Shown here: piece after piece, positions 1,243 through 59,417 of the stretch | Layout: each line of letters starts with the position of its first letter | How positions within the stretch are numbered: the first letter of the stretch is position 1 | Source of the DNA: Herminiimonas contaminans | GTDB lineage: Bacteria > Pseudomonadota > Gammaproteobacteria > Burkholderiales > Burkholderiaceae_D | Reading direction: 5' to 3' | Assembly (NCBI RefSeq): GCF_015645465.1 | Contig: NZ_JADOEL010000018.1 | Span: 1-64,000 of the forward strand | DNA length: 64,000 nt | The notes under the pieces: model-generated | Seen by the model: only the letters and a program-made list of their open reading frames with translations | Told to the model about the DNA's origin: nothing | The model's database searches: none | Translations under genes and position numbers: made by a program

Positions 1243-2424
1243 TCACTTTGGTAATAGCACCCACATCGTACCGCGCTGCTTCATGCGACCTGCCTGCTCT
1301 CCCGCCTGCGCGCCGAAACCCCAGAAGAAGTCGGCACGCACTGCATTCTTGATCGCGCCGCCGGTATCCTGCGCCATCATCAGGCGTTGCAGTACGGCAT
1401 TGCTGTTGGGCTGAGTGGTCGAGAGGAAGACCGGCGCGCCCATAGGTATATATTGGGGATCGATGGCAATCGAGCGCTGCGGCGTCAACGGCACACCCAT
1501 CGCGCCTTTCGGCCCGACAGTCGGATCAGCGATCTTTTCTTCCTTGAAGAAAACATAGCTAGGATTCGCATTCAGCAATTCCTGTTGACGTGTCGGATTG
1601 GCAATAACCCACGCTTTAATGCTTTGCGCCGAAGCCTGATCCAGCGTCATCTCACCTTTATCCACCAGGTAACGGCCTATGGATTTATACGGCTGACCAT
1701 TCTGATCGGCATAGGCGACACGCACGGTTTCCTTGCCATCCGCCAGTTGCACGCGGCCGGAACCCTGGACTTGCAGGAAGAAAGCCTCAATAGGATCGTC
1801 CACCCACAGGATTTCCTTACCTGCCAGCGAATTCGATTGCGCCATTTCAGCACGCGACGGATAAGCCACTACCTTGTTACCAACCAAGCGGCCCCGCAGA
1901 CGCATACCTTTGAGCTCCGGATAGACGCTGGCCAGTTCAATAGTCAGGATATCGTCCGGCGTACGGTGCAAAGGTGTCTGGTATGGGCCGCCGCGTTTGC
2001 GCGAACCGCGCAGCAGCGGCTCATAGTAGCCGGTGACCAGGCCATTATCCGAACCGTCCGGATTACGTACTTCGTAGGGCGCGAAGTAAGTTTCAAAGTA
2101 TTGGCGGATGGCTTCGCTATTTTTAGTGTCAACATTCGCAGCTGCAGTACACGCGTTCTTCCAGTTCACCCGACGTATCAGCACCGAGCACGATGCTGCA
2201 TAAGCAGGCCATGCTTCGCGCAGATTATCCTGACGCCATCCCGGCAGTGCCGCATAAGTAGTCGGGCGCAGAGTTGGCCCGATCTCGGTTTTCGGCAAAT
2301 CGCCCGGAGTAACTGTCGGTTTAGGCGGCACCACGACCGGCTTTTCCGGCGGTGGCGGCAAGGTGGAACAGGAAACCAGGCCGAGCAAGAGGGATGCGAG
2401 TAAACTAAGACGGATAAATGACAT
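1243..2424 (-). CDS. mltA: Membrane-bound lytic murein transglycosylase A
   Basis: An outer-membrane lipoprotein that cleaves the glycan strands of peptidoglycan with formation of 1,6-anhydromuropeptides. The ATG at 2424 was chosen because it starts a clean lipoprotein signal (MSFIRLSLLASLLLG) with a lipobox LVSC; a TTG five codons upstream is possible. The MltA domain fills the middle (VTGYYEPLLRGS), and the C-terminal 3D domain has the conserved AQDTGGAIK and ADFFWGFG segments with the catalytic-type aspartate. Length, about 393 residues, is normal. The start is only 14 bases from the divergent start of a small membrane peptide on the plus strand. Confidence 0.92.
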   Translation of the reverse strand: MSFIRLSLLASLLLGLVSCSTLPPPPEKPVVVPPKPTVTPGDLPKTEIGPTLRPTTYAALPGWRQDNLREAWPAYAASCSVLIRRVNWKNACTAAANVDTKNSEAIRQYFETYFAPYEVRNPDGSDNGLVTGYYEPLLRGSRKRGGPYQTPLHRTPDDILTIELASVYPELKGMRLRGRLVGNKVVAYPSRAEMAQSNSLAGKEILWVDDPIEAFFLQVQGSGRVQLADGKETVRVAYADQNGQPYKSIGRYLVDKGEMTLDQASAQSIKAWVIANPTRQQELLNANPSYVFFKEEKIADPTVGPKGAMGVPLTPQRSIAIDPQYIPMGAPVFLSTTQPNSNAVLQRLMMAQDTGGAIKNAVRADFFWGFGAQAGEQAGRMKQRGTMWVLLPK

Positions 2425-57792: not shown

Positions 57793-58946
57793 GCGCTTGC
57801 TCCTGCTTTCAGACTACCGCCATCAATTTCTTCATACGCCCGTGCAAAGTAAGAACGCACTACATTCATATAACGCTGATCGTCGAGCAGGAAAGCGTCA
57901 TGCCCGTGCGGCGCATCGATCTCGGCATAGGTGACAGTGCGATTATTGTTAACCAGAGCCTGCACCATTTCATGGCTACGCTCAGGCGAGAAACGCCAGT
58001 CTGTCGTGAACGACACCAGCAGGAACTTCGCACGTGTGCGTTCCAGGGTCTTGGTCAGGTCGCCACCGAAATCCTTGGCCGGATCAAAGTAATCCAGCGC
58101 TTTGGTAATCAGCAAGTACGTATTCGCATCGAAGTAAGTCGAGAACTTGTCGCCCTGATAGCGCAGGTAAGACTCAATCTCGAAGTCAATACCGAAACCG
58201 AACTGATACGAACCGGAGCGCAAGTCACGGCCAAACTTGGCCGCCATATCGTCATCCGACAAATAAGTGATGTGACCCAGCATGCGCGCCACGCGCAAGC
58301 CATTCTTGGGTACCACCCCGTGCGCATAGAAATCACCGCCATGATAATCAGGGTCGGTCAGGATCGCTTGCCGCGCTACGTCATCGAAAGCGATGTTTTG
58401 TGCGGTCAGTTTCGGCGTGGAGGCGATCACCACACAATGACGCAAACGTTCCGGAAACAGAATGCTCCAGGCCAGCGCCTGCATGCCGCCCAGCGAACCG
58501 CCCATCACAGCTGCAAATTGCTTGATACCCAATTCATCGGCCAGGCGCGCCTGCGACTGTACCCAGTCCTCCACTGTCACGACCGGGAAATGCGCACCGT
58601 ACTGTTTGCCGGTCGCCGGATTGATATGCATAGGGCCGGTAGAGCCAAAGCAGGAGCCGAGGTTGTTGACACCTATGACAAAGTATTTATTCGTATCCAG
58701 CGGCTTGCCCGGTCCGACCATATTGTCCCACCAGCCGGTAGTACCCGCGTCTTCGCTATAGGTACCCGCCACATGGTGCGAAGCATTCAGCGCGTGGCAA
58801 ACCAGCACCGCGTTGGAACGGTCGGCATTCAGCGTGCCGTAGGTTTCATACACCAGCGTGTAGTCGGTAATTTCCGCGCCGCTCTGCAAGGGCAGCGGCT
58901 TCGCGAAAAACATGGATTGCGGTGCAACGATTCCGATTGAGGTCAT
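57789..58946 (-). CDS. metX: Homoserine O-acyltransferase MetX
   Basis: Activates homoserine for methionine synthesis using acetyl-CoA or succinyl-CoA. The 385-residue alpha/beta hydrolase fold has nucleophile S151 in [12 protein letters not shown], aspartate in [12 protein letters not shown] and histidine in [10 protein letters not shown]. Betaproteobacterial MetX proteins often use succinyl-CoA despite the name; sequence alone does not decide it here. Upstream lies a leader with a strong internal terminator, implying regulated read-through. Confidence 0.95.
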
Positions 58947-59106
58947 GTTATCTATTCAGGAGAAGGGCGCGCAGCTACGGCACTGGTTTCTCTGGCATTA
59001 CAAAAAAACAAAAGCCCGAAAGCGATCCGCTTATCGGGCTAAATTCGAGACTCAGTTGCGAGCACGCTTTAGCCGTATTTATTATGCGCCCGCAAGCTGA
59101 TGTCAA
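58947..59106 (-). promoter_or_regulatory. metX 5' leader with terminator and competing hairpin
   Basis: On the minus strand a perfect -35 TTGACA (59101-59106) is followed 14-16 bases on by a -10-like CATAATAA (59079-59086), giving a start near 59073. GGCTAAA (59074-59068) can pair with TTTAGCC (59043-59037). The latter overlaps the 5' arm of a strong intrinsic terminator (59040-59013, then T-rich to 59000). About 53 further bases lead to the metX start. Overlapping alternative hairpins ahead of a methionine gene resemble a riboswitch or attenuator, but no known class was recognised and no leader peptide is present. Confidence 0.5.
59000..59040 (-). terminator. Intrinsic terminator inside the metX leader
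   Basis: On the minus strand AGCCCGATAAGCG and CGCTTTCGGGCT form twelve base pairs with one bulged T around a GAT loop. A tract TTTTGTTTTTTT follows. It lies 54 bases upstream of the metX start, and no minus-strand gene precedes it within the window. Confidence 0.8.
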
Positions 59107-59417
59107 ATCGGCGCAATGCCATAAGAATAAACAAGTCGCCCCGCTCCGTCAAACGGGAGGCGATTCCCTAAAACGGAAAACAAAACCAACATCCCGCAAC
59201 ATTCACTGCAATAATGGCTGGATCTATACCAAGACTGACACAAATATAATGGCAAGAATGCAACATAGTGTTTCATTCCTGCAGTCCAATAGCCCTATAA
59301 TCACGGGCACTTCAGGATACTAGGCGCTATCTATAGGTCAACCGCCTACCTGATAATGTGACGACATTAGTCACCTGCTGGCCAGTAACGAATTTTGGAT
59401 CGAAATAGGTTAATTGC
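59107..59417. other. Non-coding region between metX leader and glycosyltransferase gene
   Basis: These 311 bases hold no convincing gene. An imperfect hairpin spans about 59136-59163 (TCGCC with GGCGA, inner pairs CTCC with GGAG). Two TATAAT words on the plus strand (59245-59250 and 59296-59301) may be -10 elements for the polysaccharide genes, but neither has a good -35. Confidence 0.4.

Follow-up and report, generated by a model that had tools for sequence, protein, structure and literature searches.

A probable SAM-II riboswitch with a transcription terminator in the metXW leader of Herminiimonas contaminans

What decides whether metX is transcribed in Herminiimonas contaminans, when a terminator stands in the gene's own 5' leader? 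The question arises in the window (the whole stretch of 64,000 nucleotides that was analysed), where metX is encoded on the minus strand at 58946-57789, with its ATG at 58946, and is directly followed by metW (57792-57187, minus strand; TIGR02081, 238 bits against a cut-off of 189.5). The MetX protein exceeds the cut-offs of two NCBIfam models, namely the homoserine O-succinyltransferase MetX exception (NF047916, MetX_succinyl, 682.6 bits against 560) and an acetyltransferase MetX model (574.6 against 331). An initial annotation had proposed conditional read-through of the leader, in an RNA of no recognised class that would sense SAM, SAH, methionine or a charged tRNA. From the analysis presented here, the 5' leader of metXW is very probably a SAM-II riboswitch, acting as a SAM-dependent OFF switch via transcription termination. 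It contains an aptamer with conservation and covariation, a promoter-like site, a terminator hairpin and a conserved pairing that competes with this hairpin, and metX lies downstream.

On the minus strand the order of the elements is promoter, aptamer of about 50 nt (59115-59068), spacer, terminator, U-tract, a further 55 nt of leader, metX and metW. Methionine genes, as expected for SAM-II, are found immediately 3' of the leader. Upstream of it, the nearest large ORF runs divergently on the plus strand from 59418 and is glycosyltransferase-like according to weak NCBIfam matches. Between this ORF and metX the minus strand holds nothing but unsupported ORFs of less than 100 aa, in agreement with the earlier statement that no other minus-strand gene precedes metX. 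The motifs GGCTAAA (59074-59068) and TTTAGCC (59043-59037), the terminator stem, metX and metW were also found in the sequence as annotated. The span that had been assigned to the leader (58947-59106) leaves out the 5' arm of the first aptamer stem (59115-59110).

The identity of the RNA was addressed with the Rfam covariance models, a check that the initial annotation had proposed. A 571-base stretch was compared with all Rfam families at E values up to 10, and a full-length match (model positions 1-79) to RF00521, the SAM-II or SAM_alpha family, was obtained at 59124-59048 on the minus strand with 32.9 bits (E 1.2e-5). This falls short of the Rfam cut-off of 36 bits for the family, which is a database convention and not a biochemical feature. 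A plain Rfam scan of the window at the default cut-off reports nothing but a tRNA and overlooks the metX leader, because its RF00521 score lies under this value. Across the whole genome RF00521 matches nowhere else at E<=1; the metX leader has an E value of 1.9e-5 there. Low scores are the rule in related loci as well: 13 of the 14 that were scanned with RF00521 stay under the cut-off and a single one (L043, 40.6 bits) passes it.

The nucleotides themselves are more telling. In its passages on SAM-II conservation, PMC3764141 lists U10-U12, U20, U21, G22 and C23, and G42, C43, U44 and A45-A47 as completely conserved, with U20 U21 G22 C23 as residues of the SAM pocket. When the SAM-II numbering is put onto the leader by motif order, all 13 of these nucleotides are present, at 59107-59105, 59095-59092 and 59073-59068, and the same positions are invariant in 39/39 aligned sequences. 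Among the ligands offered by the initial annotation SAM is the predicted one, because every fully conserved SAM-II nucleotide has been kept, and binding of SAM by this leader is expected on that ground. The RNA is consequently not a member of an unknown class, as had been supposed: the RF00521 match, the invariant nucleotides and the pairing in the alignment identify it as SAM-II (SAM_alpha), a known class, with a terminator as expression platform.

The aptamer follows the SAM-II architecture. Stem P1 consists of six pairs, formed by UGCGCC (59115-59110, minus strand) and GGCGCA (59090-59085, minus strand), as given by the RF00521 structure line and by covariation, and it encloses loop L1 and the 5' strand of P2. 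G8 (59109), A9 and U10-U12 (59107-59105) together with L1 (GATTTGACA) make up the stretch 59109-59096 on the minus strand; G8 and U10-U12 are invariant in 39/39 alignment rows. The predicted pseudoknot P2 would be built from UUGC (U20 U21 G22 C23, 59095-59092) and GCUAAA (G42 C43 U44 A45 A46 A47, 59073-59068), both on the minus strand and invariant in the alignment. Next to P2 lies P1a, where the loop-side G at 59091 has the C at 59075 as its partner (both minus strand, both with covariation); in alpha-type SAM-II this pair is A-U. The GCUAAA of P2, extended by G59074, doubles as the 5' strand of the antiterminator.

The TTGACA motif at 59106-59101 had been taken for the promoter. It was rejected, as it lies inside loop L1 of the aptamer and is present in merely 3/76 elements of the family. 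A conserved site was found further upstream, TTGACG-N17-TATTCT at 59152-59124 on the minus strand, 14 nt ahead of G8 and 8 nt ahead of P1. As single hexamers such sites are at chance level: the promoter scan of the leader returned 3 sites against a shuffled mean of 4.3, without excess. The support comes from the relatives: in 70/76 family elements the 70 nt ahead of G8 contain TTGAC-N15..19-TANNNT, compared to 31/15,200 shuffled stretches. The spacer measures 17 nt in 67 of these 70 sites, and the gap between promoter and G8 is 14 nt in 38 family elements and 12-15 nt in 59. Promoters a few nt ahead of P1 are also described for SAM-II in the text of Corbino 2005 (PMC1273637). Because the promoter ends 8 nt before P1, transcription is expected to begin at about 59117, at the foot of P1. 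The conserved upstream promoter changes two earlier statements: the RNA would measure about 115 nt from there to the terminator rather than about 75, and the concern that the start falls too near the first arm of the antiterminator disappears.

Conservation of the element was surveyed in the window's family, as had also been suggested. A metX gene was found in 112/116 family genomes and the upstream regions of 109 were analysed, leaving out the partial metX of G307, G317 and G359 and three second matches, one of them a fragment and the others of 34% identity. The SAM-II element is present in 76/109 of these metX leaders, with 0/109 on the reverse strand and 0/2,180 in shuffled leaders, so that a lack of conservation among relatives is excluded. 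(A stricter first pattern had retrieved 52/109 leaders; the count of 76/109 is that of the corrected pattern.) It is this conservation, unlike energy or consensus, that lifts the leader above chance.

The other 33/109 metX leaders have no element (e.g. L080, L085, L108 and L124). In six of the eight element-less leaders that were inspected, metX was seen by eye to stand close behind a PTS enzyme-like ORF. There it looks as if the riboswitch-free metX had been relocated into a new operon.

For covariation an alignment of 39 sequences was used: 12 family metX leaders (window included), 18 others from the order Burkholderiales and 9 alpha-type matches, where 'alpha-type' is a label given by P1 sequence. 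The rows are a selection from 109, 30 and 30 loci. P1, P2 and P1a are paired in 98.6% of the cells, compared to a shuffle mean of 90.3% and 33-51% in slid controls. Cells with both sides changed number 34 against 9.2 in shuffles, and the covariation score is 0.297 against 0.143; two of the five covariation measures remain at shuffle level (4 against 3.8 both-side-change pairs and 8 against 8.7 further pair types). Both-side changes occur at 3/6 P1 pairs. P2 is complementary in 39/39 rows and yields no covariation because its four core pairs never vary, while the adjoining P1a does covary (G-C in 30, A-U in 9).

Pairs were also counted in anchored sets of 64 (family), 28 (order), 20 (the family holding RF02424, see below) and 14 (alpha-type) distinct sequences. 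The unparsed L046, L066, L102, L125, L139 and L023 were omitted from these counts, the first five being still included among the 76 elements. Pair 14-36 is C-G in 64/64 family and 28/28 order sequences, U-A in 20/20 of the RF02424-holding family and G-C in 14/14 alpha-type sequences. Across the groups pair 12-38 is C-G or U-A, and pair 11-39 is G-C or A-U. P1a is G-C in 63/64 family, 28/28 order and 20/20 RF02424-holding sequences and A-U in 14/14 of the alpha type; it fits the Watson-Crick pair that Barrick and Breaker 2007 predicted for SAM-II in their section on the motif (PMC2258182). The inner five P1 pairs are nearly constant in sequence within the window's family, and the outermost pair is formed in 41/64 distinct family sequences. 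Covariation is found for P1 and P1a between groups and not for the invariant core of P2; the independent covariation events are few, because most both-side changes separate whole groups.

Downstream of the aptamer lies the intrinsic terminator AGCCCGAUAAGCGGAUCGCUUUCGGGCU (59040-59013, minus strand, -16.9 kcal/mol), followed by the U-tract TTTGTTTTTTT (59012-59002, minus strand). Taken alone, the leader does not stand out for such signals. The terminator scan gave 4 candidates against a shuffled mean of 5.3, with the bulged hairpin 59040-59013 absent from its output, and the fold of an 82-nt region had a z of -1.28, with 20/200 shuffles as stable, which is not significant. Among the relatives a loose terminator criterion is passed by 66/76 leaders, yet also by 79/228 shuffled ones, for which reason a level of -12 kcal/mol was adopted. 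At -9 kcal/mol the counts are 62/76 against 14/228, and a hairpin with an energy of at most -12 kcal/mol and a T-run behind it is found between element and metX in 59/76 family leaders against 3/228 shuffled ones.

The terminator is accompanied by a mutually exclusive antiterminator (59074-59068 with 59043-59037), the arrangement that characterises attenuation. Its 3' strand UUUAGCC (59043-59037, minus strand) overlaps the 5' arm of the terminator, and its 7-bp pairing recurs in relatives. In 53/76 leaders the terminator is of the type [AG]GCCCG...CGGGCT, a pattern whose initial four bases are complementary to GGCU of the P2 strand. Full pairing of GGCUAAA with UUUAGCC (at least 7 bp) was found in 22 of these 53 leaders, compared to 1.2% of shuffled flanks, although the leaders are related and do not represent 53 independent trials; pairing of at least 6 bp was found in 34/53 (5.7% of shuffled flanks). 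A weaker test, in which the P2 strand was shuffled against the terminator arm, gave values below 0.05 in 23/66 leaders, with a median of 0.08. The comparison among relatives therefore speaks for both parts of the earlier proposal, the GGCTAAA/TTTAGCC antiterminator itself and conditional read-through by its competition with the terminator.

From these elements a mechanism can be proposed. RNA polymerase would start near 59117, with the aptamer being made first. When SAM is plentiful, it would lock P2, formed by UUGC (59095-59092) and GCUAAA (59073-59068), onto P1. GGCUAAA would then be unavailable downstream, the hairpin 59040-59013 could form and transcription would stop ahead of metX. When SAM is scarce, GGCUAAA would pair with UUUAGCC (59043-59037) and capture the first arm of the terminator, allowing metXW to be transcribed. 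Termination and the direction of control in this leader are deduced from the arrangement of its parts and from the class.

The proposed mechanism is least certain in the ON state of this leader, because the window's leader has a strong alternative stem and the terminator stays intact in the fold. Before the 3' arm of the terminator exists, the antiterminator is predicted to be dominant in 27/53 leaders. In the window's leader its probability at that stage is 0.04, because the aptamer pairs alternatively with 59065-59042. This anti-aptamer stem appears in the free minimum energy fold, with 59065-59052 and 59048-59042 (minus strand) as its 3' strands and 59109-59086 as partner, and it would break P1 and P2. 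Together with the terminator it reaches -42.0 kcal/mol, compared to -33.7 kcal/mol for P1 with the terminator and -31.3 kcal/mol for P1 with the antiterminator, pseudoknots being outside the energy model. The terminator has a probability of 1.00, with the P2 strands blocked or free. Within the limits of a model that omits pseudoknots, secondary-structure energies do not predict read-through of this leader.

The strength of this stem raises the possibility that the aptamer switches differently, between the SAM-bound P1/P2 form and the long stem itself (59109-59103, 59100-59097 and 59095-59086 with 59048-59042 and 59065-59052). GGCUAAA would then lie in the apical loop and might capture the AGCC of the terminator as a putative pseudoknotted antiterminator. 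The stem is the free minimum by the energies given above, none of 200 shuffles matches it in the window's leader or in that of a close relative (L033), and Leyn 2014 likewise proposed for their element an alternative conformation, with pairing between a later region and the first two (PMC4239095). As a general conserved partner, however, the stem is not supported: values below 0.05 were found in 11/76 family leaders, with a median of 0.155. It also coexists with the terminator in the fold. Switching by this route is accordingly considered unlikely. Somewhat less probable again, and quite speculative, is the further idea that beta-type SAM-II forms a distinct subfamily, whose near-invariant P1 strands are shared with the anti-aptamer fold. 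In leaders such as that of the window the SAM-free state would then be a long hairpin with GGCUAAA in its loop, which would capture the terminator arm as a pseudoknot. A long-hairpin platform of this kind is not described for SAM-II in the relevant passages of the papers cited here. The simpler competition between terminator and GGCUAAA/UUUAGCC, controlled by a SAM-II aptamer, remains the preferred reading.

Two other explanations depart further from it. A new RNA class for SAH, methionine or charged tRNA would be compatible with an RF00521 score under the cut-off and a ligand predicted from sequence. It is contradicted by the SAM-II match with all fully conserved nucleotides kept; at E<=10 neither T-box nor SAH families matched the 571-base stretch, and among the SAM classes SAM_alpha and, weakly, SAM-II long loop alone did so, and a separate SAH riboswitch exists elsewhere in the genome. 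Such a class is highly improbable. Hardly better placed is a separate small RNA of either strand that ends or starts here and acts in trans. Here the argument turns on the Rfam family RF02424 ('Burkholderia sRNA', Bp2_287 or Bp2_Cand287_SIPHT), typed as an sRNA gene, which matches the plus strand of the window at 59146-59010. Transcripts have been reported for its members: Bp2_Cand287 was detected by RT-PCR according to the account in Khoo 2012 (PMC3521395), and a 2024 review names Bp2_287 among the expressed sRNAs of the B. cepacia complex (PMC10987360). The window match reaches 33.8 bits, however, far from the cut-off of 70, and the conserved promoter and terminator both sit on the metX strand. 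Khoo 2012 itself noted that the homologues precede methionine genes, and considered a methionine element acting in cis.

RF02424 seems to represent SAM-II as seen from the other strand. In one family (that of G119) it matches in 22/60 genomes, in 14 of them over the cut-off. In 20/20 loci examined from these 22 genomes it is antisense to metZ and the SAM-II motif lies on the metZ strand, i.e. the family was modelled on the reverse complement of metZ SAM-II leaders. No SAM-II motif was found on the RF02424 strand in these 20 loci, and RF00521 at E<=1 gave no match in them. These loci also make an independent small RNA at metX unlikely, a case that the initial annotation had named as one that would overturn its reading. 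In two other families RF02424 passes the cut-off in 0/81 and 0/80 genomes. Of 20 further SAM-II loci that were scanned, five have an RF02424 match on the opposite strand. In 11 chosen genomes 10 matches were obtained, all under the cut-off, with four opposite RF00521 elements (G000 at metX, G035, G106 and G210) and six elsewhere. Such weak matches are unreliable, because 3/14 control genomes match too and 6/10 matches lie elsewhere. A Herbaspirillum survey (PMC6337395) has Bp2_287 merely as a table entry, and in the text of the 2024 review (PMC10987360) neither 'riboswitch' nor 'SAM-II' occurs.

The SAM-II terminator switch is already known in the beta-proteobacteria. Bordetella bronchiseptica is a species of the Burkholderiales. 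It is named among the representatives in a figure legend of Corbino 2005, who defined SAM-II (their metA motif) with terminators and as an OFF switch in the parts of the paper on this motif (PMC1273637), and SAM-II in the Burkholderiales has accordingly been in print since 2005. With SAM-II (RF00521) the metX leader shares P1 and a predicted P2 pseudoknot, the conserved nucleotides, the promoter before P1, the terminator after P2 and the methionine gene downstream. It differs from the alpha type in its beta-type P1 (GCGCC/GGCGC) and in a P1a that is G-C and not A-U. Relatives also differ from the RF00521 model in that they often have extra sequence in L1 and L3, and the window scores under its cut-off. 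Long L1 and L3 in relatives recall the SAM-II long-loop family RF01726, which matches weakly at 59120-59059 (14.8 bits); the loops of the window, in contrast, are short and the score is far under the cut-off of 44.

A second record of the same element is probably found in Leyn 2014. In the sections concerned, SAM_alpha is reported in Rhizobiales and Rhodobacterales alone, and a new 'metXZ' element with pseudoknot and terminator is described in beta-proteobacteria, upstream of metXW in 30/35 genomes and otherwise of metZ (PMC4239095). The position upstream of metXW or metZ, a pseudoknot of two sets of paired regions and the terminator are shared with the leader described here; the authors, in contrast, offered the element as new and apart from SAM_alpha. 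The metXZ element is most likely a SAM-II riboswitch, an identity that we infer from the published description, the alignment of Leyn 2014 aside. Within the open-access literature searched, Leyn 2014 was the only paper found on metXZ as a riboswitch, and no paper linking metXZ with SAM-II was found.

The element extends well beyond the window's family. RF00521 passes the cut-off in 51/300 genomes of the order. At E<=1 it matches 223/300, and 7/14 control genomes as well (none over the cut-off), so that these loosest matches are not reliable. At E<=1e-4 it is found in 78/398 genomes of the phylum and 0/14 controls. A degenerate SAM-II pattern matched at least 118 stretches; among the 80 listed, most are betaproteobacterial by title (uncounted), and some records are Legionella-like or other gamma- and alphaproteobacterial ones, again by title.

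Downstream genes were assigned for 110 elements, the 30 best order matches and the 80 listed pattern matches, two sets that overlap (L030 is from the same genome as L158). In 96/110 a methionine or SAM gene follows on the same strand at a distance of no more than 1,200 nt: metX in 49, metZ in 31, metH in 9, a cystathionine-synthase-like gene in 5 and metK in 2. (Reference genes were named by NCBIfam, and in L026 another ORF intervenes.) For the other 14 elements NCBIfam gives phosphoadenylyl-sulfate reductase (L142) and methylenetetrahydrofolate reductase (L188, L195), and, under curated cut-offs, MetN (L149, L156) and aspartate kinase/homoserine dehydrogenase (L168, L220). The remaining seven were not assigned to methionine genes; one of them, L197, leaves its contig.

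Several single loci deserve mention. L008 and L030/L158, from two different families, carry SAM-II over the cut-off with no known methionine gene next to it and a MATE-family transporter ORF about 530-600 nt downstream (labelled by NCBIfam for L158 and by eye for L008). In L009 an element over the cut-off stands ahead of a Sel1-like repeat ORF (by eye), and in L004 ahead of an ORF without NCBIfam match. In L015 metK is preceded by SAM-II (1501-1573), and a SAH riboswitch follows later in the same locus, at 2916-2994; for metK in beta-proteobacteria no known regulator was found by Leyn 2014, according to the passage on this gene (PMC4239095). L198 (JAMPER010000001.1), titled Alistipes senegalensis, has a beta-type SAM-II before metX, and the name of this MAG looks wrong. 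Near the metX SAM-II locus of L010 a c-di-GMP-I-GGC riboswitch match under threshold (1820-1901, plus strand; 50.9 against 59 bits) was seen.

For the organism, the leader most likely explains how metX is controlled, as it does for the majority of the genomes examined in the family. Three records are brought together by it, namely SAM-II, the metXZ element of 2014 (by the inferred identity) and Rfam RF02424, a joint identity that has apparently gone unremarked. A revised RF00521 model would correct the annotation of the Burkholderiales.
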